A model generated the notes under the pieces. The model saw only the letters and a program-made list of their open reading frames with translations. It was not told where the DNA came from and ran no database searches. From Verrucomicrobiales bacterium (GTDB lineage: Bacteria; Verrucomicrobiota; Verrucomicrobiia; Limisphaerales; UBA11320): 64,000 nt of DNA. Location: positions 124,001 through 188,000 of the forward strand of contig JAEUHE010000103.1 in the NCBI GenBank assembly GCA_016793885.1, read 5' to 3'. The position numbers and the translations under genes were made by a program. Positions 1,162 to 22,921 of the stretch are shown here, piece by piece. The first letter of the stretch is position 1. Each line of letters begins with the position of its first letter.

Positions 1162-4100
1162 TCACTTGCCATCCCAGGACTCGCCGGTGATCACCTTGTA
1201 GCGATCAGCCATCACTTTGGCTCGATCGCTCTGGGCCTGCTTCTCCAGCAAGCCGCTCAAATAGCCAAGCACTTGCGGACGGTCGGGGGTTCTTATCAAG
1301 AACCCCTCCAGAGTGGCGGTGGCAGACTTAAGGTCCCCCTGCAGTTCCTGTGCATACGCCAGACGCAAGGCGATATCCGGGTCCCAAGGCTTGAGCCCGC
1401 GTGCCTGTTCCAACTGAGCGGACGCGGACGGCAGCTCACCTCGTTGCAACGAAGCTACCGCCGTGCGCAGGATGTTCTCACCGGCGGCCGAGGCGATCTG
1501 CACCAACTGCTGGCACTGCCCCAAAGCTTCACTCTCTCGACCCAAACGGCTCAAAACATCGATCCATTTAAGACGGCTGCCGACGTGTTGCGGTTCGCGT
1601 AAAAGATGGGTCTCGAAGCAGACAGCGGCCTCCTGCCACCGTCCTTTGTCCCACAACAGCGTGCCCAAATAGAAGGGAAGCTTCTTGCATTCCCGATCTT
1701 CCCAGAGGTCGTTCCGGACGGCTTCAAATGCCGCCAAGGCCTCGGTGGACTGCCCCAGCTGAAACTGGCTGATTCCCAAAAAATAGCGAGCACGCGGATC
1801 AGCGGGAGCGAGCCGGAGCCACTCCGTCGCTGCCGAGCGCACCTCGGACCACTGTCCCACCAACGCTAAGACCTCCGCACGAGCTCTCTGAAAGACGCTA
1901 GATTGATCGAAACGCGAGGAGTACTCGCTTAAGAGGGCCAAAGCCTGGTCACGTTGTCGGATCGCGAGTAAGCCGAGGCTGGTCGCACGCACCGCTTCCG
2001 CTGAGGGTGTGAGTTGGAGAGCATGTCGGGCGTACCGAAGGGAGGCAGCATGATGGCCGTCCCGACGCGAGGCTTCACTAAGTCGAATCCAGAATCCTGC
2101 GTCGGACGAAATCTGTGGATCGGAGAGATGCGGGATCAGTCCGCTTCCAGCCTGCTCATAGAGACGCGATACCATCGACTCCGGCCTCAGGGGCGTGACC
2201 GCTCTAAGGATGACCTGAAGAGGCGCGGAGAACTCGATCACACGATTATCGTCCGTATTGTAGTTTGATCCCGACAGCTGTCCGCTCAACTCCTTGCCCC
2301 CAATCCAATAGTGCGCCAAAAGATCCTCCACACTGCCCGTCCGCATGATCCGAAACTCCTGCTCAACCGCATCGCTCCACTTCGCTCTAAGCCGCGCGAG
2401 ATCGAAGGCCAGGGGCTTCATGGACCCAAGGACAACGGCATCGGTCCCACTTCTGAACAGGTGCATCTCAGGGTACACCGACCCGAAAGTTCGGAGAATC
2501 AACTCGAAATGCTCCGGCTCGATTTCATACATCTGCAGCCACAAACAAAACGTCCCAGCATCCCGAAGGCGCTTGCGGCTCAGCTCAAAGAACTCCTTGG
2601 TGAACAGATTGGCCGCACCTGGGATCCAGGGATTGGAGGGTTCGGAGATGATGACGTCATATTGACGGTCGCTCACCAACAGGTGATTGCGTGCGTCGTT
2701 GACGAGCATGTGTGTCCGCGGATCGGCAAGCGGCTTGCGGTTGTAGTCCTCGAAAAAGCGGCTGCCCTCCACCACCGCGTGCTCCAACTCAAGGCAATCC
2801 ACCCGTTTAACCGGATGTGTCAGCACCGAGCCTAGCGTCACTCCGCTTCCCAAACCAATCACGAGCACGTCATCCGACTTATCACCTAACAACAAAGGCA
2901 GTTGACCCAGAAGAATCTGGGTGCCCAGGTCGCCCTGTTGAGGCTCGTCGTGCGGAGCAAACGGATTCTTGAGCCCCGACGGCACGGAGGCATCGGGCTT
3001 TCCGTTCACCGCCAGGTGGATCAGATTCCGGCTCCGTTTCACCGTCACCGTACAGGTCAATCCCTCATCGAAGAAAAGCACCTCACCACTGAGAGCTCGG
3101 AGACGTTGCAAAAACTCCTGCCGGTTCAGTCCGGTGTAATCCTTGGCATACCGAAACATCCCGGACGACATCACGGCCGGATCCCAAGGAGACGTCAGAG
3201 CCAGGCTTGCCACGCCAATCGTGAGCAAGGCCGCCCCTACGGTGCGCCGGCATCTCCGCAGAAACCCGCGCTGCATGAAGCTCATGGCCCAGGCGCCAAG
3301 TGCGGCATTGAGCAGCACCCCCATCAACATGGTCTTCTGTGTACCGAGCAGGGGAACCAACCAGAACCCGGCAACGACAGAACCGCCGATCGCACCCAGC
3401 GTGTTCCAGGCATACGCCCATCCCACGAGAGCGGGAGTTGTGCTACCCGCGGTAGGCAAGCCCTGAAGCACGATGGGAAACATAGCCCCCAGCCCAATCG
3501 TCGGCAGAATCATCAACCCAAACGCGAAGAGGAACTGCACCGATAGAAACGTGGCTGGTGAAGTCGGAACCATTTCAAAGGTCTTGAGATACAGAAAAGG
3601 AAGCTCTTCCACACACTGCACCCCAAGATAGGTCGTCAAAAGCACTCCCACCTGAACCAGAGCGACAGCGTGGAACACGTAAGCCCGGTTCCGCAGCAGC
3701 CGATTCCCTAACCAGGCCCCAAGCGCCAAGCCTAGGAGGAACGTGGAAAGCATGATCGTGTAGGCGTAGATCGAGGAGCCCAGCACCAAAACGAGCACCC
3801 GCGACCATGCCACCTCATAAAGCATCGAGATAAATCCAGAAACGGCATACATCCCAACCAGAGCACGAGCCTCATCGTGGGTCGGCTCCGACTTCCCCGC
3901 CTGCATCAGCCGAGTGCCCGGAAGCTGTTCCCGCGCATAACTTGAAGGATCCTGGTCGAAACTATTGATCAGCAGCTGCGACAATCGCCACGCGCCCAAA
4001 GCAGCCAAGCCATTCAAGCCCATCGCGATCCACTGGGTCTGCTCCAGACCTACCTTCGGAAAAAGAACGAGACCCGCGAGCGCGCAGCCCAGTACGGCTC

Positions 4101-4611
4101 CTGCAGTGTTCGCCGCATACAGCCAACCTACAAAGTGCCGGCTCAGTTGTTTATCCCTCGAGACCAAGTCGCTCATAAGGGGCAAAGTCGCCCCCATCAA
4201 TAGCGTGGGCACAATCAGCACCAATGTGGAAAGGCCAAAACGCAACAGCGTAGCCCCGGCGAATGAGGTCTCCACATTCTTCCAAAGGGCCTGTTCTATC
4301 GGAATGAAAGCTTGAATCAGGTAGGGAGTAACGAAAGCGAGCGCAGCGATCATCAACTCGATCACTGCATAAACACGGAGAGGATGATATCGCCCGAGCC
4401 TTTGGATCCAGCGCCCCATGGCAAAGCTGCCAAGCGCCAGTCCACCCATGAAAACAGCCAGGACGGTAGCCACCGCGTAGGTGGTTGACCCAAAAACTAA
4501 TTCCAGTTGCCTGACCCAACTGAGCTCGTAGATCAGGCCGCTCATGCCAGAGCCGACAAAACAAACCATCAGCCAGGAGTACAGGCGAGAGCGGGGCGAA
4601 ATGCCATTCAT
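1162..4611 (-). CDS. Fused MFS-like membrane / spermidine-synthase-like / TPR protein
   Basis: About 1149 residues with three parts: an N-terminal integral membrane region (about residues 1-470, many hydrophobic helices arranged as two similar halves), a spermidine-synthase-type Rossmann domain (GLGSG nucleotide motif near residue 585, SEPSNPWIPG near 650) and a C-terminal run of TPR helices (about 850-1140). NCBI names such chains fused MFS/spermidine synthase; their substrate is generally not known, so polyamine synthesis should not be assumed. The first Met codon is at 4623; I prefer the ATG at 4611 because CAGGGG precedes it, although the spacing is short. It follows the pilus/secreted-protein operon on the same strand after 213 bp that contain a hairpin, so it is probably a separate unit. 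The TPR tail makes a protein-binding role plausible. Confidence 0.8.
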   Translation of the reverse strand: MNGISPRSRLYSWLMVCFVGSGMSGLIYELSWVRQLELVFGSTTYAVATVLAVFMGGLALGSFAMGRWIQRLGRYHPLRVYAVIELMIAALAFVTPYLIQAFIPIEQALWKNVETSFAGATLLRFGLSTLVLIVPTLLMGATLPLMSDLVSRDKQLSRHFVGWLYAANTAGAVLGCALAGLVLFPKVGLEQTQWIAMGLNGLAALGAWRLSQLLINSFDQDPSSYAREQLPGTRLMQAGKSEPTHDEARALVGMYAVSGFISMLYEVAWSRVLVLVLGSSIYAYTIMLSTFLLGLALGAWLGNRLLRNRAYVFHAVALVQVGVLLTTYLGVQCVEELPFLYLKTFEMVPTSPATFLSVQFLFAFGLMILPTIGLGAMFPIVLQGLPTAGSTTPALVGWAYAWNTLGAIGGSVVAGFWLVPLLGTQKTMLMGVLLNAALGAWAMSFMQRGFLRRCRRTVGAALLTIGVASLALTSPWDPAVMSSGMFRYAKDYTGLNRQEFLQRLRALSGEVLFFDEGLTCTVTVKRSRNLIHLAVNGKPDASVPSGLKNPFAPHDEPQQGDLGTQILLGQLPLLLGDKSDDVLVIGLGSGVTLGSVLTHPVKRVDCLELEHAVVEGSRFFEDYNRKPLADPRTHMLVNDARNHLLVSDRQYDVIISEPSNPWIPGAANLFTKEFFELSRKRLRDAGTFCLWLQMYEIEPEHFELILRTFGSVYPEMHLFRSGTDAVVLGSMKPLAFDLARLRAKWSDAVEQEFRIMRTGSVEDLLAHYWIGGKELSGQLSGSNYNTDDNRVIEFSAPLQVILRAVTPLRPESMVSRLYEQAGSGLIPHLSDPQISSDAGFWIRLSEASRRDGHHAASLRYARHALQLTPSAEAVRATSLGLLAIRQRDQALALLSEYSSRFDQSSVFQRARAEVLALVGQWSEVRSAATEWLRLAPADPRARYFLGISQFQLGQSTEALAAFEAVRNDLWEDRECKKLPFYLGTLLWDKGRWQEAAVCFETHLLREPQHVGSRLKWIDVLSRLGRESEALGQCQQLVQIASAAGENILRTAVASLQRGELPSASAQLEQARGLKPWDPDIALRLAYAQELQGDLKSATATLEGFLIRTPDRPQVLGYLSGLLEKQAQSDRAKVMADRYKVITGESWDGK

Positions 4612-4740
4612 TAGCCCCTGCATAGCAAGAGGCCTACCAAAAGGATCTACCCTCGAAGCGGAGCAACCGGATGCAGTTTGAGAAGCCAGCGGGTCGCCTC
4701 ACCCAGAGAATCGGCAATAAATCTCAGAGTCAAGAAAGCA

Positions 4741-4768
4741 CCTAGGCAAGAGATGCCTAGAGGGCCAA
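4741..4768 (-). terminator. Probable terminator hairpin after the secreted-protein operon
   Basis: The 7 bp stem CTAGGCA/TGCCTAG has a 5-base loop. On the minus strand it is followed by a moderately T-rich stretch (GTGCTTTCTT). It lies about 70 bp downstream of the stop of the giant secreted protein and before the next minus-strand gene, where a terminator would be expected. Confidence 0.4.
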
Positions 4769-4836: not shown

Positions 4837-7800
4837 TCAGGGATCCGTCACCCTCACGCGCATGCGGTAGTGACGTGAGATGTTGGTGGGGCCGCGATCA
4901 AAGTAGACGAACGGCACCGATTGCGGAGGCACGGTGTTGGCCACGGGCGTAACAATGTTGGTCAACACCATCCAAGGTCCGTTCGCCAAGTCCAAGGTGT
5001 ATTCCAGAGTGTTGGTCGCGTAATTCGTGTAGACCGTGTTGTTGTAGCTGACCAAGGCATTGCCAGTCAGCAAGAAGCCTCGTCGGCCTAGAGCATTGGT
5101 GGGCACCGGGGGCTGCAAATCGGTGTTCACGGAAGTCCAGACAGGTTGAGCATCGCTCGGATTGGGGATCCCGTCGTTATCCGAATCCAGGTTCGCGTTG
5201 AGAACCAAAGACAGGTTCAGATCAAAGCTCAACAGGCCATAGCTGATGTTGGTGCCGGAGAAATTACCAGCAAAGCTAGAAGCCCAGCGCAACCCATCGT
5301 CGGCTGCATGATTGACTCCATCCTGTGGTAAGAGAGGGGTTGAGTTGGCAAAATAGACCCGAATGCCCGGATCCACCACGATGGCGTCGGCAATGTTAGT
5401 CGCGTTGTTCAACAAAACCAACTCGTCGATGTAAAAGGCAACATTACTAACGCCAGGAGGCGGAGAGAATCGGAACAAGCAGTTGTCTCCCCCATCGAGT
5501 ACCAAACGTCCGATGGCTAGATTGGTAGCATAAGCGTCAGGAGTCGGTCCCGCGTCAGGGATGGCGGATGAATGGATGACTTCGGTGAAGGCTCCAGCCG
5601 TGGAATAGATTGTGGTCCCCAAAAGGTTTCCGGACTTCGGTGCCCGCATCAGGACCAAGCTTTGGTTGATCGACCAGAAGTTGGAGGAGGACGGGCCCCC
5701 ATCAGAAATGGAGTTCGTGACGTTGAGGATCAGTCCTCCGGCAGCGACAGCAAAGGGATTCAACCCGGCCGCCCCGGCCTCGATATAACTGTTGGTAGTT
5801 ATTAAATCATTGGCGGTCAGCGTAATGTCGCCCACTACTTGGTTCGAACTGCCGCTCAACAAATTGAGCTGCCTCGCATTAAGCACCATGCCACCGTCGC
5901 TCGCGGCTATGTAATTGCTTTGAATGATCCTATCGCTAGCCAGCCGAACGTCGGCAGCGAAGAGCCCCCCATAGTTGACGATGTTGGAAAGCGGTTTGGA
6001 CCGATCAGCCCCCATGTTCAATCCTCGTGAGATCACCAGATTCCCGTGATTGGTGAAGTTCTGAAGGTTGACGAGGTTGCTGCCCGCCAGGCTGGTGTTA
6101 GGCGGGTTGAAGATGTTCACGGCGTTGGTCCCAACCTGGCCTGTGATGGTCAGGTTGGTGGCATCGATCAACAGATTTGCGGCCACAGACATCGTATCGG
6201 AAAGAACCACGCTCTTGCCTCGAAGCTTCAGATCCTGAAGCAATACTTGTTGAGTGCGGGTGAAATTGTGGTCCACCACCAGAATATGAACCATGAAAAC
6301 GTTCGTGACGTAGTTGGTTCCACCAGGAGTTACCGGATCGTTGGTCGAGCCACTCTGCCAGATGGCCGAATAGCAGCCCAAATCGCCAGCCCAGCGGTTG
6401 ACCGTGGGTGGCACCAAGTTGGAGACAACTAGGTCCGACTGCTTGGAACGAAGGTCGTAGCTTAACAAGGGAGAGTCAACCGCGTTGGGAAGCGCGTTCC
6501 CGACCAAATCATCAGTCTGGATGATCAGGGCGGATTCAGCCCGGATCCGCGAGCGATCCAGGTTCAAACTCTTCGCCTTAATCTCAACTCGGCCGGCCAG
6601 ATTCGTCACCTCGTCGCGAGGCAAGCCGGACAACCCAGGAATCGTTTCGAAGTTGTTGCCGTTCAGCTTGGACATCAGCAAATTCGACCCCCCCGCAAAG
6701 GACACTGAGTAGGCCGTGTAGGCCGCGCTCACGGTGTTGGACAACAGATCAGGATTGTAGATCATCAAAGGATCAAAGACGGCATTGGACGGGCTCCCAA
6801 TGTCGCTCAGAAAGTTCACGGCCCCGAAGGAGTAGGTGTTAGGACGCGCCGTCCCGTTTCTTAGTCCACCCCGATCGAGCCCCTCAGGCGTGGGATTCCC
6901 CGCACTGGCGAGATTCGGGACCAGATACAGGTTTCGTTCAGGCCGGATCGCCGCCGAGTTTTCGCCGCGGAACGCCAAGTAGTCCCGCAATTCCAGGAAG
7001 TTCGTCGTATTGAGTCCGGTGAACGGATCCAGCTCAGGCAGCCCCAGTCGAACCGTGGCGATATTTCCAGGTCCCGGCCAGTTGGCTCCGCTGATGTTCT
7101 CAATGTTCGGGCTGAAGCCGACTTCGACGCTGACACCCTCCGTGAAGCCGTTGGTGTTCACAAACACCATTTGGATCACATTCGTCAACGGAGACCCGCC
7201 GGGGTTGACCAAATTAGTAAAGACGAACGAGTCGAATGTGGGCGACTGATAAAAATCCTGTGGGCTCACCAGGCCAAATCCCAGGGGAAAACCACCCAGG
7301 AAACCACCCAGGAAACCAGCAAATCGCGAAGCACTTCGGCTGTTGGCGCTGTGGGCAGGAGGGACTGTGGCCGGCGGCGTCAGCGCGGTGCTGAGCCCCT
7401 CCAAGGCGATACTGTTGCTCCGCGAGGCCCAATAGTTGTCAATGAATGTGCCATCGCTGAAGCCGGATGCATTGGGGGGAATGCTAGCCACGCCGGGGTC
7501 CAGGTTGGGATACTGCTCAAGGCCACCAGGCAGTCCACCGACCCGGAATCCGGTATAGATAACACTGCGCGAAACGTTAACCTTGTCGCCTTCAAGGTGA
7601 ACAATCCCTCTCCCTCCGGCCTCGACGCCCCGACCCGAATTCACCAGATTCGAGGAGTTTACCCACACTGAGACATCACCGGAGATCAGTCCACGGTTCA
7701 CCCAGTTCAGGAGCGGTCCACGTCCTCCCTGATAGGAGTGGTCAAAGTGAAATCCCGGGGAACCGCTCATCGTGCCCGCAGCGGCGTTGGTCACGAACAG

Positions 7801-8019
7801 CGTGTTAAAGGTCTCGAACGGGACATCGCTACCCAGGAACCCTCCGCCGGTCGCGACGGAAAAAGAACTCCGATTGTCGAACGCTGTGGCGTTGATCTGG
7901 GGTGTATCGTCGGCAAACGTCACCGGCGAAGTGTTAATATAGAGCGGCACTGGGGCGGCACCAAAAACCGACTCGGTCAACACACCAGTTAGCAACAGTA
8001 GAAGAGAGAAATTTCTCAT
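4837..8019 (-). CDS. Giant secreted repeat-rich protein, adhesin/filamentous-haemagglutinin-like
   Basis: A 1060-residue exported protein. The ATG at 8019 gives a clean signal peptide (MRNFSLLLLLTGVLTESVFG); a Met codon 60 bp earlier would lie inside the preceding gene. The mature part is rich in Asn, Ser, Thr and Val with short beta-strand-like segments and phrases such as NRGLISGDVSVWVNSSN and NLTITGQVGTNAVN, which suggest a right-handed beta-helix as in filamentous haemagglutinin-type surface proteins. A Gly-Phe repeat (GGFLGGFLGGF) occurs near residue 240. Near residue 960, DSDNDGIPNPSDAQP resembles a calcium-binding thrombospondin-3-like turn. There is no PEP-CTERM tail and no visible transmembrane anchor. 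It is the last gene of the pilus-linked run, 22 bp after the preceding gene. Function unknown; a surface or matrix role is inferred from composition only. Confidence 0.7.
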   Translation of the reverse strand: MRNFSLLLLLTGVLTESVFGAAPVPLYINTSPVTFADDTPQINATAFDNRSSFSVATGGGFLGSDVPFETFNTLFVTNAAAGTMSGSPGFHFDHSYQGGRGPLLNWVNRGLISGDVSVWVNSSNLVNSGRGVEAGGRGIVHLEGDKVNVSRSVIYTGFRVGGLPGGLEQYPNLDPGVASIPPNASGFSDGTFIDNYWASRSNSIALEGLSTALTPPATVPPAHSANSRSASRFAGFLGGFLGGFPLGFGLVSPQDFYQSPTFDSFVFTNLVNPGGSPLTNVIQMVFVNTNGFTEGVSVEVGFSPNIENISGANWPGPGNIATVRLGLPELDPFTGLNTTNFLELRDYLAFRGENSAAIRPERNLYLVPNLASAGNPTPEGLDRGGLRNGTARPNTYSFGAVNFLSDIGSPSNAVFDPLMIYNPDLLSNTVSAAYTAYSVSFAGGSNLLMSKLNGNNFETIPGLSGLPRDEVTNLAGRVEIKAKSLNLDRSRIRAESALIIQTDDLVGNALPNAVDSPLLSYDLRSKQSDLVVSNLVPPTVNRWAGDLGCYSAIWQSGSTNDPVTPGGTNYVTNVFMVHILVVDHNFTRTQQVLLQDLKLRGKSVVLSDTMSVAANLLIDATNLTITGQVGTNAVNIFNPPNTSLAGSNLVNLQNFTNHGNLVISRGLNMGADRSKPLSNIVNYGGLFAADVRLASDRIIQSNYIAASDGGMVLNARQLNLLSGSSNQVVGDITLTANDLITTNSYIEAGAAGLNPFAVAAGGLILNVTNSISDGGPSSSNFWSINQSLVLMRAPKSGNLLGTTIYSTAGAFTEVIHSSAIPDAGPTPDAYATNLAIGRLVLDGGDNCLFRFSPPPGVSNVAFYIDELVLLNNATNIADAIVVDPGIRVYFANSTPLLPQDGVNHAADDGLRWASSFAGNFSGTNISYGLLSFDLNLSLVLNANLDSDNDGIPNPSDAQPVWTSVNTDLQPPVPTNALGRRGFLLTGNALVSYNNTVYTNYATNTLEYTLDLANGPWMVLTNIVTPVANTVPPQSVPFVYFDRGPTNISRHYRMRVRVTDP

Positions 8020-8041
8020 CGGAGACTTACAGAAAAGTTGA

Positions 8042-9604
8042 TCACGGAGTGGTACCAGCGGTTGTCGTGTTCGTGCCAACCACTACGATAACTGAGGACG
8101 CCCAAGGACTCAAGCCAGAGCCCGTATCCAGCCCACCAGAGGCTGCGATCTGTTGTAGAGTCTGAAAACTGGTTCCTCCGTAAAAAGGATACACCACCGG
8201 AGGCGTGGGAGAGCCGTCATACGAACCCCAAGCGGCAACCGGAGCCGTTTCGGCGATGTCGCCTGGATTGATGTTAACGAAGGCGGGATAGAGGCTGGTG
8301 AAGGCCACTTCCACCGTACCGCTAATCACCCCCGGGCCGATCGGCCCCGTGCCATCACCGCCACCACCACCTACGCCGCTATGCGTGTTGAGAGCGGCGT
8401 TCGCAGTCCAAGAACTGGGTTGGGTGACACTGAAAGCAAAGGGCAAACCCGTGGGAGAGGTGCCGATATCTCTCGCTGAGAACAAAATATCAGGCTGGGT
8501 CACCAGCCGGCTAACCCGACGTGAAACCTGCCGGAAGTTGAGGATGATCGTTTCGTTGTAATTCACCACGAATGGATTAAAGGCCTGACCTACGATCGAG
8601 TCATAGTTGACTCGACTAAACTTCAGCTTGCCCAGACCTGGCCGCAACGCAATGGAAGTGTTCGTCCCCAACACATTGGTCCCAATGATCGTGTTCGTCA
8701 GTGTGGTGACCTCCCACGGATTGCCTCCCACGACACTGGCCCCACCGGACACGATGGCGCCGGGGTATAGATTCTCAACCGCCAGGTTTTGCGAGCTGTA
8801 CAGCCGGCGCAAACCACCTACGTCATCGCGGGTCAGACCAAAGAAATATTGTCCAGAGAGCAATTCTCCACTGGCAGATACCATTGTCCCGGTGACTGGA
8901 TCTTGTTCCACAGAGACCACGGTATCTCCGCCGTCAGCGGTCGAGTTAGCAACCGAGCTGTACCCTCGGGTCCGAAGGTCGCTCACCTTGATCTCGCCAG
9001 CCAGCGCGGCCGTCGTGTTGTCAGGAAGCGTCAGTGGGTCGTAGATTTCGTAAGTATAAAGGGCACCGTTCACGTAGCTGGAAGGACGCAACGTCACGGG
9101 ATCGTAATTATATTTGACGACCGTGTAGTTGGTAACCTGGTTCCGCACCACCCTAGACTTGATGCTCCAAACGAAGTGCTCAGCCGCCCCAACGCCCAAT
9201 TGCTGCATCATCAACCCCATGGTCTGCGACTTGAGATCGATCAGACCGGTCTGCCGTGCGGAAAAGTTCAGGCCACGGGTATTCAGAGGATACTCCGATA
9301 GATCCGTCGACATCGAACCGAATGCAGGCAGATCAGAATAGACTTTCAGAGCGCTTTCCACGGCGGCAACCCCGTTGGTACCGAAGTACTCGATGAACGA
9401 GCGGTCAAATGCGTAGTAGATCGTTGGTGTGTTCCAACGGAAACCTTCGTCCGGAGGCAGCGGTCCGCCATCCTGGCTGTTGACCTGGTAACCAATGGCC
9501 TCGACCATCCACGGTTTAAAGGGGCCTATGAACGTAAATCCCTGGGCCTGACTTGAAGCAAGCAAACCGACGATCGCCAATAGGACTGAGCGCGCGAAAT
9601 TCAT
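8042..9604 (-). CDS. Secreted protein of unknown function, possibly a degenerate matrixin-like fold
   Basis: The ATG at 9604 starts a signal peptide (MNFARSVLLAIVGLLASSQA) and gives about 520 residues; the longer open frame upstream would overlap the preceding gene. I do not recognise a family with certainty. The order of elements in the first 300 residues (TPTIYYAFDRSF, a helix VAAVESALKVYSDLP, later LTRDDVGGLRRLYS) resembles matrixin-type metalloproteases, which end their catalytic domain with a DD.xGI..LYG turn. No HExxHxxGxxH zinc motif is present; the nearest equivalent is VGAAEHFVWS. The C-terminal third is Gly/Thr/Val rich. It sits 20 bp after the beta-propeller-like gene and 22 bp before the giant secreted protein, so it is very likely translated with them. 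Confidence 0.65.
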   Translation of the reverse strand: MNFARSVLLAIVGLLASSQAQGFTFIGPFKPWMVEAIGYQVNSQDGGPLPPDEGFRWNTPTIYYAFDRSFIEYFGTNGVAAVESALKVYSDLPAFGSMSTDLSEYPLNTRGLNFSARQTGLIDLKSQTMGLMMQQLGVGAAEHFVWSIKSRVVRNQVTNYTVVKYNYDPVTLRPSSYVNGALYTYEIYDPLTLPDNTTAALAGEIKVSDLRTRGYSSVANSTADGGDTVVSVEQDPVTGTMVSASGELLSGQYFFGLTRDDVGGLRRLYSSQNLAVENLYPGAIVSGGASVVGGNPWEVTTLTNTIIGTNVLGTNTSIALRPGLGKLKFSRVNYDSIVGQAFNPFVVNYNETIILNFRQVSRRVSRLVTQPDILFSARDIGTSPTGLPFAFSVTQPSSWTANAALNTHSGVGGGGGDGTGPIGPGVISGTVEVAFTSLYPAFVNINPGDIAETAPVAAWGSYDGSPTPPVVYPFYGGTSFQTLQQIAASGGLDTGSGLSPWASSVIVVVGTNTTTAGTTP

Positions 9605-9624
9605 TTTCTTTGAAACTTGGCTTT

Positions 9625-11514
9625 CTACTGCAGGCGTACTACCCGGTACAAATTGGACGCACCCTGCTGATCTATCCTCACCGAGTCGGATGTCTCTCGA
9701 GCGAAGCGAACGGTCCCGAGATCCTTCCAGACGGCCGGCAACCCCTCCGCCACCTGGACCTGATAAACGTAGCCGGGAACAGTGTTCCAAGTAAGAACCG
9801 TCGCGTGAGCTCTGTGGGCTACCCCAAGTTTGAGCACACTCTGCCCATCCAAGGGCAGCGTTCCCGCTCGGAACTCACTCAAATTGGAGGCACCGTCGCC
9901 ATCGCTATCCGCTGCAGCGTCCGCCCAATTGCCAGCATCAGAACCCCAGTAGATCGTCTGCCAATCATCGGGAATACCATCTCCATTTGTGTCTTCACCC
10001 CACACCCGACCCGCGGCGGATGCCGACCAAAGCGACTGTTCGCCGTTCTTGAGAATATAACGAAGCTTGAACTGGTGGGTAGACCCCGGCACTAAACCTT
10101 CCACCGAGTAGTGATTCCTATCCACAATCAAACCAGCGTTTCCATCCACTGAAAGCTCATAGTGGGCCAAATCGTAACCGGTCAAAGCGGGCCAACTGGC
10201 TTGCAACGAGCGAAGGCTGCTCGCCCCGACAAAGGGCGCCTCAGGTTGCGGCACGGTGGACACTGCGGAATAGCGCTGGGCATGTAAGTCAAAGCCGCGA
10301 CGATCTAGGAACGTGGAGAAAACGATGGCCGCCTGACTCACCCCGTCCGAAATGGCGACGGGTTGAACTTGTGATGAAGGTGTCCAGGAATTCACGCGGA
10401 ATTCGTCGCCGCTCGCCACACCCCCACGCAGATAACGTGCATACACCCCGTTTTGGCTCCCATCCTGGCCCGTGGAGGTCCAGGTAACTAAATGAAGTGC
10501 ACCTAAGCGGGTGATGCTAGGCACAATTTGGTTGCCGCGCGCATACGTGTTCAGCACGGAGGGTTCTCTGACAGTAACGCCGTCCAAACTCACCGTGGAA
10601 GTCACAATCTCCCAGCCGTTGCTGCGAATGGATGACCTCTCAGACCAAGCCACAATCAGTTGGCCCCCTTCGGTCGAGGACAAACTGGGGTTGGCACAAT
10701 GGCTGTTCGATCGATTCACTCTAAACTCGCCGGTCATTGGCTCGCCCGTGGAACTGAACACCCGAGCGTAGGTATCGATACTGGCCAAACCACGTCCCTC
10801 GTTAGCCGCGAACCGCTGCTGCTCGGATATCCAGCAGACCGCAAACCCACCATTGTCCAACGCTGTAACGTCGGAGTTCCTTTGGTTGAATGCCGAAAAC
10901 TCGTTCACCTGGAAGATTCCCCCTAGAAACTTACCGGTTGAATCGACGATCCGACCAAACACACCTTGAAGATCACCATCGGCTCCAAACGTGGACCATA
11001 CCAGAACAGCATTACCGTTCTTCAGCACAGACACCCCAACGTCCAAGCTCTCTTGAGTGGTGGATTGGCTCACCACGGTCTCGGCCGCCGAGAAGATACC
11101 CTTCTTGCTCAGGAACCGCGCGTAGATCTTGTGCCGCCCCGGCTCTCCTCCATCCCAACAAAAAACCGCCGAACCATCCGCGAAAAGCCCCACCTTGGGC
11201 TTTTCCTGGTCACCGGCGTTGAGTTGGTTGACCCGAAAAGCGGGGGAAAGAGCGGCGGAGAATCCGGCGGACAATTGGCGAGCTACGATTCCCGAGCCCT
11301 TACCGTCCGCTGCACTATCCTGCCACACCACGAAACCGTAATTCCCTTGGTACGCCCCAGCACTGAACATCTGGTCGCCGACGTAGCTACCCACTAATGG
11401 GTACTCATCTCCTACCGGGCTGAGCGATTGGGCCCTTGCCAGTCCTGCCGTGAGCACTAGAGCAATCAGCACGGCCAGCCGGTGAACAGACGCAGACTTT
11501 GTCGAACGAGGCAT
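9625..11514 (-). CDS. Secreted repeat (beta-propeller-like) protein with fibronectin-III-like and dockerin-like C terminus
   Basis: The ATG at 11514 starts a signal peptide ending near LTAGLARAQ and gives 629 residues. Four or more repeats follow the pattern F.VN......Q..P......DG....W (for example FRVNQLNAGDQEKP, FQVNEFSAFNQRN, FRVNRSNSHCANP, FRVNSWTPSSQVQP); such repeats occur in many secreted bacterial proteins and are thought to form beta-propeller blades. Then comes a fibronectin-III-like segment (PEAPFVGASSLRSLQASWPAL), two calcium-loop-like stretches (DTNGDGIPDDWQ near residue 510 and DSDGDGASNLSEF near 545) and a short beta-rich tail ending SNLYRVVRLQ. There is no PEP-CTERM anchor. 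It starts 37 bp after the secretin gene, which suggests co-expression with the pilus system. Confidence 0.65.
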   Translation of the reverse strand: MPRSTKSASVHRLAVLIALVLTAGLARAQSLSPVGDEYPLVGSYVGDQMFSAGAYQGNYGFVVWQDSAADGKGSGIVARQLSAGFSAALSPAFRVNQLNAGDQEKPKVGLFADGSAVFCWDGGEPGRHKIYARFLSKKGIFSAAETVVSQSTTQESLDVGVSVLKNGNAVLVWSTFGADGDLQGVFGRIVDSTGKFLGGIFQVNEFSAFNQRNSDVTALDNGGFAVCWISEQQRFAANEGRGLASIDTYARVFSSTGEPMTGEFRVNRSNSHCANPSLSSTEGGQLIVAWSERSSIRSNGWEIVTSTVSLDGVTVREPSVLNTYARGNQIVPSITRLGALHLVTWTSTGQDGSQNGVYARYLRGGVASGDEFRVNSWTPSSQVQPVAISDGVSQAAIVFSTFLDRRGFDLHAQRYSAVSTVPQPEAPFVGASSLRSLQASWPALTGYDLAHYELSVDGNAGLIVDRNHYSVEGLVPGSTHQFKLRYILKNGEQSLWSASAAGRVWGEDTNGDGIPDDWQTIYWGSDAGNWADAAADSDGDGASNLSEFRAGTLPLDGQSVLKLGVAHRAHATVLTWNTVPGYVYQVQVAEGLPAVWKDLGTVRFARETSDSVRIDQQGASNLYRVVRLQ

Positions 11515-11551
11515 AACGCTAAGCAACGGTTGTGAGGTCAAGACTGCCTTA

Positions 11552-14332
11552 TTACTTCACCGAGCTGCCCGATTGAGCAACGGCGGTTGGTGTCTGGCTC
11601 GGAATGCCGTTCTTCGCAAAAGGCATTTCTTCCTCGGAGTGAACCCGATTTCCAGCCGGATCAATAATGGTCGGGGTCACAAAGATCATGAGGTTTTTCT
11701 TGTCCGAGATATTGCTCTCGCTTCGGAACAAACGCCCAAAGAGCGGAAGATCACCCAAGAACGGCACTTTGTCCTTCGTCTTGGTCTCACTTTCGGAAAT
11801 CAAACCACCGAGCACCACGGTTTGACCATCCCACACCACCGCGGTGGTTGCAACCTGGCGCAATCGGAATTGCGGCAAGGGAATAGGCTGGCTCAGCGTA
11901 GGCACCGCAGTCGTTCCGACCGAAGTCGCACGAACTTGGAACTGCTGGGCTGTTTCAAAGTCATATCCTACGAATTCCTTCAAGGTCGGGATGATGGTCA
12001 TCTGGATCGTGTAGCCGTCCGCGGAAACATAGGGAATGACGTCCAGGATGGGCCCTAGTTCCGTCGGGGTCGCGATTGGCTGAATGGCTGAAGCGACACC
12101 ACCCTGACCGCCACTGTTCACGTTGACTCCCCCCGTGCCACCACCACCGCCGCCCGAACCGGTTTGGTTCAGGTCGATGTCGGTAACGACGAACTTCACG
12201 TCGACAGCCTTGATCTGGGTCTGCCGAGAACTCACCGTGACGACCTCGGGAGCGTTCAGCACGTTGATGCCACCCCGCTGCTCCAAGGCCTTGATGGCGA
12301 CTCGGAACTGCGGATCAGTAAGGATGCCCGTGAACGTTCCTAGCGTCGGAGTTGTATCCTGGCGAAGGCCGCTGGTTAGCAAGCCATCATTCGCGCTAGG
12401 CGACACCCCACTTCCAAACCCAGGGAAAGGAAAGCTACCGATCGGATTAGCCGCGGTAGGCGTTCCGGAGTAGGTGGGAGCCGTTCCGCCCTGGAGCCCC
12501 ATCTTACCATCGCCCACCAGCGTATTCCCAAGCATCCAGTCAAAGCCCAAAGCCTTATTCTGGCTGAGGTTCACTTCCGCAAAGCGAGCTTTGATCGAGA
12601 GCTGAGGAGGAGGAACGCTCAGAATCTGAACGGCCTGCTCAATGATGTCTAGGTCGGCTAAAGTGGCCCGAACCATCAGCAGTCCGTTACGGTCGTTGTA
12701 GAAGAGCTGCTTCGGTGGCAACAAAGTGACCCCTGCGGCCGTGAAGAAATTGCGAACCGTTTCCCCAATCACTTGCGTGTAGGCCGGCCGAGTCAGGAAG
12801 GTAACACCAGAGCTACCCAACTCACCACGGTAGGTCTGAGGATCACTGGGGATACCGGCGGCACCGCCGCCACCGCCGCCTGCACCGCCACCCGCACCGG
12901 TGGGCGCAATGTTAATTCCCGCAAAGCTCGCTCCAAATTGCTCCTGAGCCTGCTGCTGACCACCCTGGCCGCCACCGCCACCACCGCCCCGGCTGCCGCC
13001 ACCACCACCTCGGCTACCACCACCACCGCCGCCACCGCCACCGCTACCACCCTGCCCACCTTCACTGCCGAAGGAGGCCGCGGTCACCGATTCAAGACCT
13101 TGACGGAATGAGTTCGGATCCACTTTGAAAGTCCGAGTGAACAACTGCTCCGGTTCGCGACTACGGAACGAGAACACAATAGCATAGTCTTCCACCGAGT
13201 ATTTGATAGGGCGATCCGCGACTTTGATGATGGCGTCCAGCATCTCCGCCAGAGTGATCCCACGCAACGGAGTCGGCACATTGATGATAACATCGCTCAA
13301 CAAGGGAGCGGAATCGGCCGCGGGTGTGGGAATCGGGGTGCCGTTAGCATCTAACTGAGGCACCGCGACCGGTAGATCGATGTTCGGCGCGAGCAGCATA
13401 TTGACGCCCGTGCGATCCGGATCGCGCTTCTGCGACTCGTTGAACAGATCCTTGATAACCTCGGAGAGGTTCTTGGACTCAAACTTCATCTCGTTAAGCG
13501 TGATACGGCTCAGTTTCGAGAAGATCATTTGGCGGGCCCGACTGGTATGCACCATGTTCGTGCGGGCGTAGCCATTAGGCTGAGGCAGAGAGTTTCGGGT
13601 GTTGGGATCCATCCATTCCCGCGTTACTTCGGCAAACTGATCGCGGAACCATCCCTCACGCTTGAGAATCTCTCCGGAGTGGCGCTGCTCCCGAATCACG
13701 TTCAGGTAATAGTATGCTCCCTGGTTGTTGGCATCGGCCGCGAGAATCTCATTCAGCTTGGCTTCCGCTTCCTTGAGGCGCCCGGCCTCGATCAGCACTT
13801 TGGCGTCCTGGAGCTTGGTGCCTTGTTTCAGCTGCTGCTCTTTGATCTCCGGCAGCATGGCCAACGCCTCAGGGCTGGGCATCTTACCCGCTACCTGCGC
13901 CTTAACCTTGTCGAGATTGCGCCTGAACTCCTGGGCGGCCTTGTTGTCCGGGTCCACAATGAGGACCCGGTCCACTTGCTTCTCCGCCTCGAGCAAATCA
14001 CCGCCGCGCTGCGCTTGCTGCGCAACCTGCAGGCGGCTCAGCCCCATGCCGGATTTCACCTCGGCATACTCCGCCTCAACACCGTTGTTAACGGTTTTGA
14101 GTTGGAGCAGACAATCCTCATAAAGGCGGTAAGCCTCGGCAAACTTGCCGGCTTTTTCAGCCTCCTGGGCCTTGGCGATTTTGGCCCGGACATCCACCTT
14201 GGCAGCCTGCCGTCTTATGCTTTCCTTTGTCGCTTCGTCGATCGCTGAGCCCGAGGACTGAGCGAAAGCTGGAGGACAAAGTGCCAGCCAAGCGGCTGTG
14301 ACACCAACCAAGAATCTAAACGTGCTGAACAT
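11552..14332 (-). CDS. Outer-membrane secretin, Amuc_1098 family
   Basis: A 926-residue secretin with a signal peptide (MFSTFRFLVGVTAAWLAL, cleavage after PPAFA). Residues about 30-220 form a TPR-like helical region, followed by an STN/N-domain-like region ending near 380. Three Gly-rich linkers follow (about 420-465, 474-495, 722-744), then the secretin core with the signature VPFLGDLPLFGRLFRS at about 856-871. By homology it forms the gated outer-membrane ring for a type IV pilus-like machine. The order PilM-like, Amuc_1100-like, Amuc_1099-like, secretin on one strand matches the Akkermansia Amuc_1101-1098 cluster. A terminator-like hairpin precedes it and may lower its expression relative to the platform genes. 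The call as a secretin is firm; the Amuc_1098 assignment rests on context and architecture. Confidence 0.9.
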   Translation of the reverse strand: MFSTFRFLVGVTAAWLALCPPAFAQSSGSAIDEATKESIRRQAAKVDVRAKIAKAQEAEKAGKFAEAYRLYEDCLLQLKTVNNGVEAEYAEVKSGMGLSRLQVAQQAQRGGDLLEAEKQVDRVLIVDPDNKAAQEFRRNLDKVKAQVAGKMPSPEALAMLPEIKEQQLKQGTKLQDAKVLIEAGRLKEAEAKLNEILAADANNQGAYYYLNVIREQRHSGEILKREGWFRDQFAEVTREWMDPNTRNSLPQPNGYARTNMVHTSRARQMIFSKLSRITLNEMKFESKNLSEVIKDLFNESQKRDPDRTGVNMLLAPNIDLPVAVPQLDANGTPIPTPAADSAPLLSDVIINVPTPLRGITLAEMLDAIIKVADRPIKYSVEDYAIVFSFRSREPEQLFTRTFKVDPNSFRQGLESVTAASFGSEGGQGGSGGGGGGGGGSRGGGGGSRGGGGGGGQGGQQQAQEQFGASFAGINIAPTGAGGGAGGGGGGAAGIPSDPQTYRGELGSSGVTFLTRPAYTQVIGETVRNFFTAAGVTLLPPKQLFYNDRNGLLMVRATLADLDIIEQAVQILSVPPPQLSIKARFAEVNLSQNKALGFDWMLGNTLVGDGKMGLQGGTAPTYSGTPTAANPIGSFPFPGFGSGVSPSANDGLLTSGLRQDTTPTLGTFTGILTDPQFRVAIKALEQRGGINVLNAPEVVTVSSRQTQIKAVDVKFVVTDIDLNQTGSGGGGGGTGGVNVNSGGQGGVASAIQPIATPTELGPILDVIPYVSADGYTIQMTIIPTLKEFVGYDFETAQQFQVRATSVGTTAVPTLSQPIPLPQFRLRQVATTAVVWDGQTVVLGGLISESETKTKDKVPFLGDLPLFGRLFRSESNISDKKNLMIFVTPTIIDPAGNRVHSEEEMPFAKNGIPSQTPTAVAQSGSSVK

Positions 14333-14349
14333 GTGCTTTCCCGTCTTCT

Positions 14350-14383
14350 GTTTAAAAACAAAAGCACCTCACTTAGGGGGTGC
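14350..14383 (-). terminator. Intra-operon terminator or attenuator hairpin before the secretin gene
   Basis: On the minus strand GCACC....GGTGC forms a stem that contains the TAA stop of the Amuc_1099-like gene in its loop and is followed at once by TTTTGTTTTT. This has the form of an intrinsic terminator, with a short stem, placed inside the operon about 20 bp before the secretin start. Confidence 0.5.
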
Positions 14384-15224
14384 GTTTGAGTCTGGTTTTC
14401 TTTTCGTTTAAGCGATTGGAGACTACCACCTCGTTTTCTGTGATTTCAACGATTTTGTAGTCCTCGCCGCCAAAGCCGATGAATGCGTCCCGTCGGAGCC
14501 CTTTATACTGGCGACCCTCCGGCGGATAACTCAACTCCGCAACATACGCCTCAGCTCGAACAAAGGCCTTGTCCTTGGCCACCGAGATCCGTTCCTTTGT
14601 TTCCGTCAATTCAAACACCAAGCCATCGGGATCTTCTGCCTTACCCTTCACTTCACGAAGCCATAGCTGATTCGGATTCCTGGCCGTTCCGCCGGGCATG
14701 CGGATTTTTTCGTCCAACTTCATGGTAAACGGCCTCGGTTTTCTAAACTCTGGTCGATCGGCCGCCTCCGCCATCAACTCAACAACGTAGGACGCTCCTC
14801 CCGCAGTGCCGGAGTCGTTAGAGGCGCTCACGAGCCGCACCACCAGATTCAAAGGCTTGATGGAATCGATCTTCAAGGCTTCCGGACCGACCGATTTACC
14901 AGACCTATCCACGATCAACTTTCCATCCTGGCCGCGCATCCACTTCACCGGATTGAACAGCTTGTGGGGCAGACCAAAATCAACGCGCGGCGGGTTGAGC
15001 GCCACTTTGAGCCCCTGGTCATACGCCGCCATGTCCAGGGCCGGCGGCGGGTTCAGCTTTTTGCGAACATAGTTGCCGGTGGTCTCGTTGGCTTTCTTCT
15101 GTTCCTCTCCGCTGAGCCAATACAGGAAGCCGACCGCCACCGCCAAAATCAGCACGACAAGAACGAGAATAGCCTTCTCGTAGTTGGCCTTGGCTAGCTC
15201 GACTAATTTTTTAACTTTTTCCAT
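14373..15224 (-). CDS. Amuc_1099 family pilus-like system protein
   Basis: A 283-residue protein with one N-terminal transmembrane helix (about residues 19-39) and a periplasmic remainder. A Pro-rich linker near residues 55-60 leads to a beta-rich domain with the end IVEITENEVVVSNRLNEKKT, typical of pilus assembly proteins of the PilP type that connect the inner-membrane platform to the secretin. Length and position between the Amuc_1100-like gene (8 bp upstream) and the secretin gene (40 bp downstream) match Amuc_1099. The family name is assigned mainly from gene order; by sequence alone I would say only a bitopic membrane protein with a PilP-like tail. Confidence 0.75.
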   Translation of the reverse strand: MEKVKKLVELAKANYEKAILVLVVLILAVAVGFLYWLSGEEQKKANETTGNYVRKKLNPPPALDMAAYDQGLKVALNPPRVDFGLPHKLFNPVKWMRGQDGKLIVDRSGKSVGPEALKIDSIKPLNLVVRLVSASNDSGTAGGASYVVELMAEAADRPEFRKPRPFTMKLDEKIRMPGGTARNPNQLWLREVKGKAEDPDGLVFELTETKERISVAKDKAFVRAEAYVAELSYPPEGRQYKGLRRDAFIGFGGEDYKIVEITENEVVVSNRLNEKKTRLKRTP

Positions 15225-15232
15225 GTGGAATA

Positions 15233-16180
15233 CTATTCCGCCGGCGGCGCGGCCTTGGTCACTTCAAGCAGCATCGACACCCGGAATGCCTTCTCATCCG
15301 CGAGAGTCTCCAATCGTCGAGTTTGATTCGCGGCTGCCGCACCCGGCCCACCAGGTCGCGGCTGCCCACGCTGAGCCGCACCGGCCGGAGCCCCCGAGTT
15401 CACAGGGATGAACGGACCACTGGCCGCAGGACCCGCACCAGGCTTACCGGGCGCAGCGGGCAGCACCGAGAGCAGTCGCACGGACAAGGCCTCAGGGCTG
15501 CGTTCGACGTTCTCAAGCACCGAGGCCAACGACTCGCTGAAGGCCGTGAACGTGACGACGTGAAAGCTGCTGATCTCGCCGGTCAAATCATTGGTCATCT
15601 TCGGAATCGCATGATAGTCGACCGAGCTGACAGCCGCCAAGTCATCCTTCGAGATCGCCTGCCGCCGCAAGTTTTCGAGCGCGCTGATTTCGGATCGGAA
15701 GAGAATCCCGCAAATGAGCTTCACCTCGGCCAACTGCTCCGCGAGCAATGGTACGCTGCCCTCTGCAAAGCTGACCAACGGCTTGATATTGGAGAAGCCA
15801 AACTCCTTCTGCGCCACCGGAATCCTGGCTTGGTCAGCCTGACGGTTCAACTGAGCCAAACTGTTGTCCAAAAGAGTTTTGAAGTTCGCAGAACTGATCT
15901 TGGCATCGAAGTCCAGCGGCTTTCGAGCCGCCATCACGTTGGTCAAAAACGTTTTCAGCTCCGCGTCCTGCTGACGCAGGATCATGATGTTGGTCGCCGT
16001 CGGAGAGGTCGACTTTAGATCGTAAATCTTTTTGAGCGAGGCGTCTGTTTCCTCGAGCTGTTTTTGGACTTCTGAATTCTCGCTCCATTTGGAGAACAAG
16101 TAGTAGCTGCCAAAAAGGAACAATCCTACCGCCACCACCAGGGAGAGAGCGAAAATCAAATTGCGCTTGAGCCAAAGCAT
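15233..16180 (-). CDS. Amuc_1100 family pilus-like protein
   Basis: A 315-residue protein, close to the 317 residues of Akkermansia Amuc_1100, the membrane protein known for TLR2-linked effects on the host. The order of parts is the same as I recall for Amuc_1100: an N-terminal membrane helix (about residues 7-29), a coiled-coil stretch (about 35-95), two alpha/beta PilN/PilO-like domains, a Pro/Ala/Gly-rich disordered loop (about 243-285) and a final beta strand FRVSMLLEVTK. It should act in the inner-membrane pilus platform facing the periplasm. It starts 5 bp after the PilM-like gene and ends 8 bp before the Amuc_1099-like gene, so tight co-translation is likely. Sequence identity to the Akkermansia protein appears low; architecture and gene order carry the call. 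Confidence 0.8.
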   Translation of the reverse strand: MLWLKRNLIFALSLVVAVGLFLFGSYYLFSKWSENSEVQKQLEETDASLKKIYDLKSTSPTATNIMILRQQDAELKTFLTNVMAARKPLDFDAKISSANFKTLLDNSLAQLNRQADQARIPVAQKEFGFSNIKPLVSFAEGSVPLLAEQLAEVKLICGILFRSEISALENLRRQAISKDDLAAVSSVDYHAIPKMTNDLTGEISSFHVVTFTAFSESLASVLENVERSPEALSVRLLSVLPAAPGKPGAGPAASGPFIPVNSGAPAGAAQRGQPRPGGPGAAAANQTRRLETLADEKAFRVSMLLEVTKAAPPAE

Positions 16181-16185
16181 ATCAA

Positions 16186-18039
16186 TTACAGGTCCAAAGG
16201 CTTCGCCAGCTTCAACGTCAGTTCGAACGTAAAGAAGAGACCGGCATTCGTTCCACGGTCATCCACCTCCAAACGTCCCGACAGAGCGGTGTTAGTAGTA
16301 AACAAATTCGAACTAGCCACCAATTTCTGAGCCAAGGCCGAGGCCAGCTCGAAATTAGCGGAAGGTTTTACGGTCTGGTTGAGGTTCAACCCGCGACAGC
16401 TTAGGAGAATGGACTGAACCTGACTCGGTGAAGGCGTCTCGCTAGGAGGCCCCCTTCTTCCGGCACGGACTTTAACACCGGAGGTGTCCGGCGGAGCTGC
16501 TGATGGATCCACCACTGGTTCCCCTTCAGCCGGAGTCGCCAGACCCTCCATGGGCAACGGATCCGCCATCACGGGAGCCATCTTCTCCACCCACATCGAG
16601 GCCTCAACACCGGCCGCGGCTAGGATCTCCGGAGCCTTTTCCTCCGTCTCGCGAAAAGCGCGTCGGACTTCACCCAACATCTGAGACCAGTAATGACGAT
16701 CCTCCAACCAGGCCAGATGAGCATCCGCCAAGGTCTGGGTCTTCTTGAGATTGTCCTCCGCCTTCGATAGTTGCGCTTTAGAAGCTTCCATCGGCTTCAG
16801 CTTCTGCCGCAGATCCTCGAGGGTCTGGGCCTTTTGCTGGGAGGTTTTCTCGTAAAAGAAGCCAATGGTGAACACGATCAAGGCCAAGCCTAGAGCCGAA
16901 GCGATGAAATAGGGCTTCTTCTGGGCAAATCGCTGCCGCGTGAGCGAACTCTCGGGCATCAGATTCAACTCAACGGGGCAGTGAGCCAGATTTCGCAGCC
17001 CCAACCCCACCGTCTCACCGAGTGAGTGAGCCACCTTAGCCAACTCATCCAAGTCCAAGGACGGGTCAATCTCGACGTTTCGAAGAGGGTTGAAGTAATC
17101 GACAGGGATGTTCAGCTTCTCGGTAAAGAACTCGCGGGTATAGGGCATGATCGAAGCCCCACCCGACAGGAACAACCGCTGGGGAGCGCTGCCCCCTTGC
17201 TGAGTGCGGTAAAACTGAATGGTCTGATTGACCTGAATGTGAAGCCGCGTCATGAACTGACGCGCAATCTTCGAGATAGCCGCCTGATTGGGATTCTCCG
17301 GCTCCGCGTAAGCACCCCCCAATCCTACGAATCCTTCCTGAATCTTGAGCCGCTCCGCTTCATCATAGGGCAACTTCGCCTCTCTGAGAAAATCCGTCGT
17401 GATCGAGTTCGCACCGATGTTGATGCCTCGGGAATAAACCTGGCCCTTATCGAAAAAGAGCAAATTGCAGGTCTTGGCCCCGATATCGAGGAGCATCGAG
17501 CAGCCTTCCTGATCCCCGTAATTATACCGAAAGGCATTACACAGCGCAGCCGGCGACACATCCGCCAACTGCAGCCTAAGGCCGGCCGCTTCAGCCACAC
17601 CAAAGAGCCCTTCGACGACGTCGTTCTTGATCGCCACGAGCAAGACTTCAAGCTCGCCCGTGCTGGTGGTCCCGATGATCTGGTAGTCCCAAACAACCTC
17701 CTCCAGCGGGAATGGCACGTTTTGCTGAGCCTCGTACTTGATGATCTGGGTCACCTTCGAGGTGTCGACCGGAGGCAGGCGAACAAATTTCGAGAACGTT
17801 TGAAAGCCCGGAGCACAAACGTTAATGCGGTTAGATCCGAACTGCTTCTCCTGGTAAAGGGCCTGGAGCTTGCTCTGTAGCAAGGCTGGACGCGCTTTGT
17901 CATTGAAGCTCTCCTCACCCAGAGCAGCAAAGCCATATTTGCGCAAACGCAAACCACCAGCTTCGTTCACTTCGAACTCAGCCAGCTTCAGCGTCGTTGC
18001 GCCAAAATCTACCGCAAGAAAGGACTTTGATGTAAGCAT
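16186..18039 (-). CDS. pilM: PilM-like pilus platform ATPase-fold protein fused to a PilN-like part, Amuc_1101 family
   Basis: A 617-residue protein starting at the ATG at 18039 (MLTSKSFLAVDFGATTLKLA). The first ~350 residues are an actin/FtsA-like PilM domain with the phosphate motif AVDFGATTLKLAEFE, the second motif LLDIGAKTCNL and the adenosine motif LFLSGGASIM. A transmembrane helix follows (about 378-397), then a coiled coil and a PilN-like periplasmic domain, with a Pro-rich loop near residues 510-545. In classical type IV pili PilM is cytosolic and PilN is a separate protein, so this is a natural fusion of the two, as in Amuc_1101. It is the first gene of the operon; the 500 bp upstream should hold its promoter. 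Confidence 0.85.
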   Translation of the reverse strand: MLTSKSFLAVDFGATTLKLAEFEVNEAGGLRLRKYGFAALGEESFNDKARPALLQSKLQALYQEKQFGSNRINVCAPGFQTFSKFVRLPPVDTSKVTQIIKYEAQQNVPFPLEEVVWDYQIIGTTSTGELEVLLVAIKNDVVEGLFGVAEAAGLRLQLADVSPAALCNAFRYNYGDQEGCSMLLDIGAKTCNLLFFDKGQVYSRGINIGANSITTDFLREAKLPYDEAERLKIQEGFVGLGGAYAEPENPNQAAISKIARQFMTRLHIQVNQTIQFYRTQQGGSAPQRLFLSGGASIMPYTREFFTEKLNIPVDYFNPLRNVEIDPSLDLDELAKVAHSLGETVGLGLRNLAHCPVELNLMPESSLTRQRFAQKKPYFIASALGLALIVFTIGFFYEKTSQQKAQTLEDLRQKLKPMEASKAQLSKAEDNLKKTQTLADAHLAWLEDRHYWSQMLGEVRRAFRETEEKAPEILAAAGVEASMWVEKMAPVMADPLPMEGLATPAEGEPVVDPSAAPPDTSGVKVRAGRRGPPSETPSPSQVQSILLSCRGLNLNQTVKPSANFELASALAQKLVASSNLFTTNTALSGRLEVDDRGTNAGLFFTFELTLKLAKPLDL

Positions 18040-18550: not shown

Positions 18551-18590
18551 AAAATAAAAAAGCCCGAGCAGACCGAGCCGCTCGGGCTTT
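18551..18590 (-). terminator. Intrinsic terminator of the exopolysaccharide/exosortase operon
   Basis: On the minus strand AAAGCCCGAG, a 12-base loop and CTCGGGCTTT form a 10 bp stem followed by TTTTTATTTT. It lies 20 bp after the stop of the last operon gene, in the right orientation. Confidence 0.9.
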
Positions 18591-18609: not shown

Positions 18610-19575
18610 CTAAACCTTAGAACGAAAATATTTAATCGTTTGCTTGAGCCCTTCAGCGAGACCCACCTTGGGTTCCCACTTGAGAAGCGTGCGAGCCAAC
18701 CGAATATCCGGCTTTCGCTGCTTCGGGTCATCCTGAGGGAGAGGGCGATGAACAATCCGACTGCTCGACCGGGTAGCCCGGATGGTGGCCTCGGCAAACT
18801 GCAACATGGTCATCTCGGTAGGATTCCCTATGTTCACGGGGCCGGGTGCCGATCCCATCATCAATCGATAGATACCCTCGATCAGGTCGGAACAGTAGCA
18901 AAAGCTCCGGGTTTGACTGCCATCGCCAAACACAGTGATCGGCTTGTTTTTAAGGGCCTGGCTAATGAAGGCGGGCACCACCCGGCCATCGCGCAGTCGC
19001 ATTCGAGGACCATAGGTGTTAAAGATGCGGACGATGCGAGTCTCCAAGCGGTGCTGCTTTCGATAGGCGGTCACCAAAGCCTCGGCAAATCGCTTGGCCT
19101 CATCATAGCACCCGCGCGGACCAATGGGGTTCACATTGCCCCAGTAGGTCTCGGGTTGGGGATGCACCAAAGGGTCCCCATAGACCTCGGAGGTGGAAGC
19201 CAGTAAAAATCGAGCCCCTTTCTCCTTTGCCAGGCCAAGTGCCTTGTGGGTCCCAAGCGAGCCAACCTTAAGGGTTTGGATGGGTAGCTCAAGATAGTCA
19301 ATCGGGCTGGCCGGAGAGGCGAAGTGCCAAAGATAATCCACGGGGCCGGCCAGATAGAGGAACTCCGTGACGTCCTGCTCGATGAAGTGAAAATTACTGT
19401 TCCCCGCCAAGTGAGCGATATTGTCCACCGACCCGGTCACCAGGTTGTCGATGGCAACCACGCGATGGCCGCGGTCCAACAGATAGTCTACGAGATGCGA
19501 ACCAAGAAATCCCGCACCTCCGGTAACGACCGAGGTCAACTTCGTCTGACGCGCCGAACGGTTTGATGTTGCCAT
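18610..19575 (-). CDS. UDP-glucuronate decarboxylase-type NAD-dependent sugar epimerase
   Basis: A 321-residue extended short-chain dehydrogenase. The start at 19575 ([20 protein letters not shown]) places the Rossmann motif [11 protein letters not shown] near the N terminus; the longer open frame would overlap the sugar-transferase gene. The catalytic YDEAKR (YxxxK) lies in [14 protein letters not shown], and the segment [18 protein letters not shown] is the hallmark of UDP-xylose synthases (UXS), which oxidise and decarboxylate UDP-glucuronate to UDP-xylose. A UDP-xylose or related pentose donor would suit the surrounding polymer genes. A UDP-glucuronate source is not obvious in the window, because the dehydrogenase upstream looks more like a GDP-mannose enzyme. 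Last gene of the operon, directly before its terminator. Confidence 0.8.
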
Positions 19576-19616
19576 GCAATTGTTTTCGGCAGGCGCGGGG
19601 GTTCCTTGAGCAACGA

Positions 19617-21005: not shown

Positions 21006-21057
21006 GGCAAATACTACTTACTCAATGTGACCATCGCAGCTGAATCACCGACACCCA

Positions 21058-22872: not shown

Positions 22873-22921
22873 AATACGTCACAATAATACCCGGATTGGA
22901 ACATGGTTACCCCCTCTCCGT

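Follow-up and report, generated by a model that had tools for sequence, protein, structure and literature searches.

In the bacterial order Limisphaerales, the four genes of an Akkermansia-type pilus machine and three genes for secreted proteins, designated P, R and B, form one conserved, order-specific unit. The seven genes stood in identical order and on the same strand in all 86 loci that were not cut by contig ends, including the locus in the window (the whole stretch of 64,000 nucleotides analysed here, from a host assembly of 8.7 Mb). Since the arrangement recurs unchanged in every one of these loci, it is far beyond chance. On balance, we lean towards regarding P, R and B as dedicated extracytoplasmic parts of the four-part machine and not as passing cargo.

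As the preliminary description stated, the seven genes lie on the minus strand of the window (Table 1), and the gaps it gave from pilM to B (5, 8, 40, 37, 20 and 22 bp) were exact to the base when counted with ATG starts. Its placing of the first four genes in the Amuc_1101-1098 order was confirmed by Pfam, NCBIfam and position. The PilM-like protein and the secretin exceeded the Pfam cut-offs (27 bits for PilM_2 and the curated 27.5 bits for Secretin, which was matched over residues 682-891), and the NCBIfam scores of the core proteins were below the cut-offs for Amuc_1101 (650 bits), Amuc_1098 (750 bits), Amuc_1100 (180 bits) and Amuc_1099 (50 bits). The Amuc_1099-like call is based mainly on position, its score being nearly nil. 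An N-terminal hydrophobic segment was found in 97 of 98 orthologues of the Amuc_1100-like protein. No NCBIfam name was obtained for P, R or B of the window.

Table 1 Features of the seven-gene locus in the window. Gene coordinates include stop codons.
Feature	Position	Strand	Evidence
PilM-like ATPase-fold protein (Amuc_1101-like), M	16186..18039	-	PF11104 126.8 bits; NF045709 475 bits
Amuc_1100-like inner-membrane protein, O	15233..16180	-	NF038287 37.8 bits; position
Amuc_1099-like membrane protein, N	14373..15224	-	NF042425 12.8 bits; position between 1100 and secretin
Secretin (Amuc_1098/PilQ-like) with N-terminal TPR, Q	11552..14332	-	PF00263 111.5 bits; NF042912 305 bits
Secreted protein P, propeller-like	9625..11514	-	W-repeats; fn3 and TSP3_bac in orthologues
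Secreted protein R, predicted matrixin-fold pseudoprotease with C-terminal beta domain	8042..9604	-	predicted structure; zinc motif missing
Secreted protein B, predicted FHA/HxuA-like right-handed beta-helix with TSP3 and C-terminal YRV domain	4837..8019	-	predicted structure
Terminator-like hairpin	18559..18590	-	13-pair stem and T tail, between upstream epimerase gene and pilM
Weak terminator-like hairpin	4741..4761	-	8-pair stem after last gene; may be chance

In Akkermansia, Amuc_1098-1101(-1102) constitute a pilus-like cluster (PMC5332112, PMC4960237). The window shares with it the order of PilM, 1100, 1099 and secretin as well as the TPRs at the N-terminus of the secretin. It differs in its upstream gene, a sugar epimerase, and in the scores of its four core proteins, which, judged by sequence, are distant relatives of Amuc_1101, 1100, 1099 and 1098 below the equivalog cut-offs and not equivalogs. 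The region upstream of pilM (18610-24139) encodes the sugar epimerase, a sugar transferase, an exosortase-like membrane protein and a glycosyltransferase, and pilM was preceded by an epimerase of this type in 52 of 93 loci. At 1162-4623, the window encodes a 1153-residue fused protein with membrane transporter-like and spermidine synthase-like parts and C-terminal TPRs.

The conservation of the unit was evaluated by searching 196 genomes of the order, most genomes surveyed being metagenome-assembled genomes (MAGs), with each of the seven proteins, the best matches of which mostly shared contigs and neighbouring places. Gene order was then rebuilt for 98 stretches and the window with profiles made from these families; the 13 loci beyond the 86 mentioned above were cut by contig ends. 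Bias from picking loci by PilM was checked with 80 loci drawn independently from another collection, for which the secretin rather than the triplet served as the criterion, although the genomes partly overlap those of the first sample. The same gene order was found wherever the contig was long enough, and in one locus (L206) only B, the last gene, gave no score. A chance neighbourhood or a single-genome artefact is thus ruled out by the 86 loci together with the secretin-picked sample. The preliminary description had raised the case that the triplet might stand mostly away from the pilus set in relatives; instead, wherever a locus of the order was untruncated, the triplet lay next to the secretin. 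Genomes of the order without an R match mostly had contigs ending inside the secretin gene; one genome (G034), with a full secretin (contig C249) and no R match, is a possible exception. Two full sets in a single genome (L117 and L118 in G002) were left out as evidence as possible MAG contamination. The locus also occurs in public MAGs whose records bear the titles Akkermansia muciniphila, Klebsiella pneumoniae or Proteobacteria and look mislabelled (L205, L206, L233, L235, L253 and others).

Identity to the window protein was roughly 30-50% for R orthologues and 25-48% for B orthologues. Since R and B are orthologues at those identities, they do not constitute a variable cargo set. Across the loci, the median gap was 9 bp between P and R and 24 bp between R and B, and the gap before P was about 120 bp in most loci.

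Outside the order, a search of 213 genomes from the rest of the phylum gave no match to the R profile, and PilM relatives were common in the class. In 20 of 20 outgroup loci, in some of which the 1099 member was too divergent for calling, the core pilus genes stood together without P, R and B, which the window adds. When 116 PilM rows were placed in a tree, a branch with an SH-aLRT of 100 set the order apart, and the triplet needed one change. Because the triplet is absent from the outgroups and needs a single change on the tree, the simplest account is a single gain close to the root of the order, after which it was retained.

The preliminary description had the pilus genes run directly into the triplet. 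This holds in the window, where 37 bp separate the secretin gene from P, but not in half of the order: in 47 of 94 loci, the secretin and the triplet were separated by a gene resembling a stand-alone 5'-3' exonuclease (e.g. L060:9781-10791 and L098:9516-10424, plus 45 other loci), and in the other 47 they were not. The exonuclease identity derives from the gene's own sequence and a single match in the window genome, and not from a family model; that sole match lies inside a 967-residue open frame fitting DNA polymerase I, and a separate copy is absent from this genome. A gene of this kind also directly follows the secretin in outgroups (L179-L181, L183, L184, L196 and L197) and in early-branching members of the order, and 16 changes on the PilM tree are required to explain its distribution. 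It was most simply an older neighbour of the secretin that was lost many times, and the direct secretin-triplet contact seen in the window therefore probably reflects a secondary loss. The triplet keeps its place with or without the intervening gene. It is conceivable that the exonuclease-like gene is linked to DNA uptake.

The internal gaps of the window locus contained no promoter-like or terminator-like site, and this included a separate promoter before P; the sigma-70 promoter scan is weak evidence, and its promoter-like hits were at chance level. A separate promoter for the triplet, which the preliminary description had named as a point against its reading, is accordingly not seen in the window gap, whereas the 120 bp before P in most loci leave room enough for one. 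P-R-B are likely one operon, and it is plausible that all seven genes are. Hydrophobic, signal-like N-termini were found in nearly all R and B orthologues and in most P orthologues by a simple hydrophobicity rule, with orthologue starts chosen by script. As described earlier for the window, P, R and B carry no PEP-CTERM tail, and none was present in any family member examined.

P of the window comprises seven repeats of about 55 residues, each built on a conserved tryptophan position (W64, W120, W173, W228, W290, W345 and residue 399), followed by an FN3 domain, a TSP3-type calcium site and a C-terminal domain ending in YRV; fn3 and TSP3_bac were detected in its orthologues. The C-terminal YRV domain is common to P and B (hhalign probability 96%). 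From its repeats, P appears to be a propeller-like protein with seven repeats. PilY1 of type IV pili is a secreted, calcium-binding propeller tip adhesin encoded with pilus genes. P appears to share these traits with PilY1, but its gene context is different, and neither P of the window nor 39 P members matched Pfam PilC/PilY1.

No credible Pfam family was found for R in any of 51 orthologues, and neither R nor B had sequence relatives among solved structures. The AlphaFold2 model of R (mean pLDDT 82) gave a weak single score with Foldseek (E 0.4). In a second look, all 50 listed structural matches were matrixins, each weak in itself (Z 4.1-5.0), with about 100 residues at 2.1-3.0 Å for most listed matches and 2.4 Å over 104 residues for the top one. 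Since these matches are uniform, though the single scores are weak, a matrixin fold is considered probable for R. The predicted fold resembles that of matrixins such as MMPs and karilysin, including a helix like their active-site helix, but in the R model beta hairpins are inserted and a further beta domain follows at the C-terminus, and R lacks the zinc motif that matrixins have. The helix expected to bear HExxHxxGxxH reads about DLKS..L...LE.LGL, and neither this motif nor HExxH occurred in any of 180 members, off-locus paralogues included. Among 92 members, the first zinc-ligand position kept histidine in 10, the second was glutamate in 73, and histidine was not among the residues listed for the third. 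Because the zinc motif is missing in all members, R is best called a pseudo-matrixin, a predicted fold without the catalytic site. Thus, of the term matrixin-like in the preliminary description, the predicted fold probably stands and the activity does not. Off-locus R paralogues exist in some families of the order. R-like proteins of 1000-1300 residues, in several copies per genome, were seen in two families (L285, L287, L288, L292, L294, L296, L300-L302 and L308); in these, N-P-H replaces P-E-R after the helix.

The model of B (pLDDT 81) is a beta-helix, and the closest structure was the secretion domain of HxuA (Z 15.6, 3.0 Å over 193 residues), with further matches to EtpA (Z 14.2) and HMW1 (Z 13.5). 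TpsA exoproteins of the HxuA, HMW1, EtpA and FHA type form a right-handed beta-helix like that predicted for B. B, however, stands beside a secretin and not beside a TpsB pore; none of 45 B members had a credible Pfam family or a TPS-family match, and no TpsB pore was apparent next to B in the open reading frames of the window. In 41 loci, B is followed on the same strand by a further large secreted protein, some of the weak matches being perhaps only partial. A Peptidase_S8 (subtilase) domain was present in both examined (L057:16217-19900 and L131:668-4351), and at least one of these proteins ends in the same YRV-type domain as P and B.

The secretin gene is intact in the window. In 17 loci, it is replaced by two tandem genes (L053, L064, L069, L077, L080, L081, L083, L090, L098, L099, L103, L109, L112, L139, L141, L142 and L143), and this split takes 5 changes on the PilM tree to explain. 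The split point is a loop inside the secretin beta-domain; in the window, this loop (about residues 720-745) is rich in glycine. The second product had its own signal-peptide-like leader in all 17 cases. We know of no description of a secretin cut within the barrel domain. The rhizobial type III secretin is split into RhcC1 and RhcC2, its N- and C-terminal parts (PMC3574062, PMC3973906). As in the 17 loci, one secretin is encoded there by two genes, but the rhizobial genes stand apart and separate N- and C-terminal domains, whereas those found here are adjacent and the cut is inside the beta-domain. In outgroups of several families (L188-L193), two full-length tandem secretin genes follow the PilM set.

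Since the set is fixed across the order, parts of the machine are favoured over cargo. From the gene order, the single gain on the PilM tree, the Sec-type N-termini and the loss of the zinc motif in R, we infer the following assembly. Sec would take P, R and B across the inner membrane; they would then go through the secretin, or assemble at it, and together form an assembly at the outer surface or the filament tip. In this assembly, P may serve as a propeller docking platform, R may bind without catalysis, and B may be an adhesin or a long, rigid spacer. Eight PilB/GspE-sized motors and several PilT-sized ones are encoded elsewhere in the window genome, and one of the eight could drive the machine. 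Against P, R and B being parts, the core machine stands in other orders without them, constancy is also compatible with a secreted protein being a dedicated substrate, the space before P in most loci could hold a promoter, and R has off-locus paralogues. It is possible, if doubtful, that the triplet is a new extracellular sub-assembly fixed throughout the order, with P-R-B as a stable complex at the mouth of secretins that have repeatedly become two-chain.

In some type II systems, a substrate gene adjoins the machine genes, and P, R and B could likewise be dedicated substrates, carried to the medium or the surface by the secretin machine. The Sec-type N-termini and extracellular folds of all three and the TSP3 sites in P and B agree with this, and the extra protein after B would fit a growing substrate cassette. 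However, such sets usually vary in number and place, whereas P-R-B is fixed, and no enzymatic activity was detected in the three proteins, R having lost the one its fold suggests; we regard this explanation as rather unlikely. The tight spacing within P-R-B and the wider gap to the preceding secretin or exonuclease gene, about 120 bp in most loci, would also suit an independent surface structure, e.g. an adhesive sheath, that shares only regulation with the pilus genes. Such a structure would be expected to have moved away from the pilus genes somewhere, but none had among the untruncated loci, and this appears distinctly improbable. The matrixin fold match and the few first-position histidines could be taken to mean that R is an active metalloprotease with another zinc site and that the triplet degrades polymers. 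The glutamate prevailing at the second ligand, the lack of histidine among the residues listed for the third and the absence of HExxH speak against it, and an active protease is rejected as highly improbable.

The literature on the triplet, on pili in this order and on pseudoproteases with secretins, searched with few subscription journals covered, held no report of the link between triplet and pilus, so that the preliminary description's view of the link as undescribed stands within that coverage. A large, mostly uncultured order thus keeps a machine together with three fixed extras, two of them families without a Pfam model. It would be unusual both for a pilus machine to carry a conserved pseudoprotease and for secretins to be split within the barrel. 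If P, R and B are machine components, they would reveal what is exported or anchored by the secretin and would provide a directly testable partner set.
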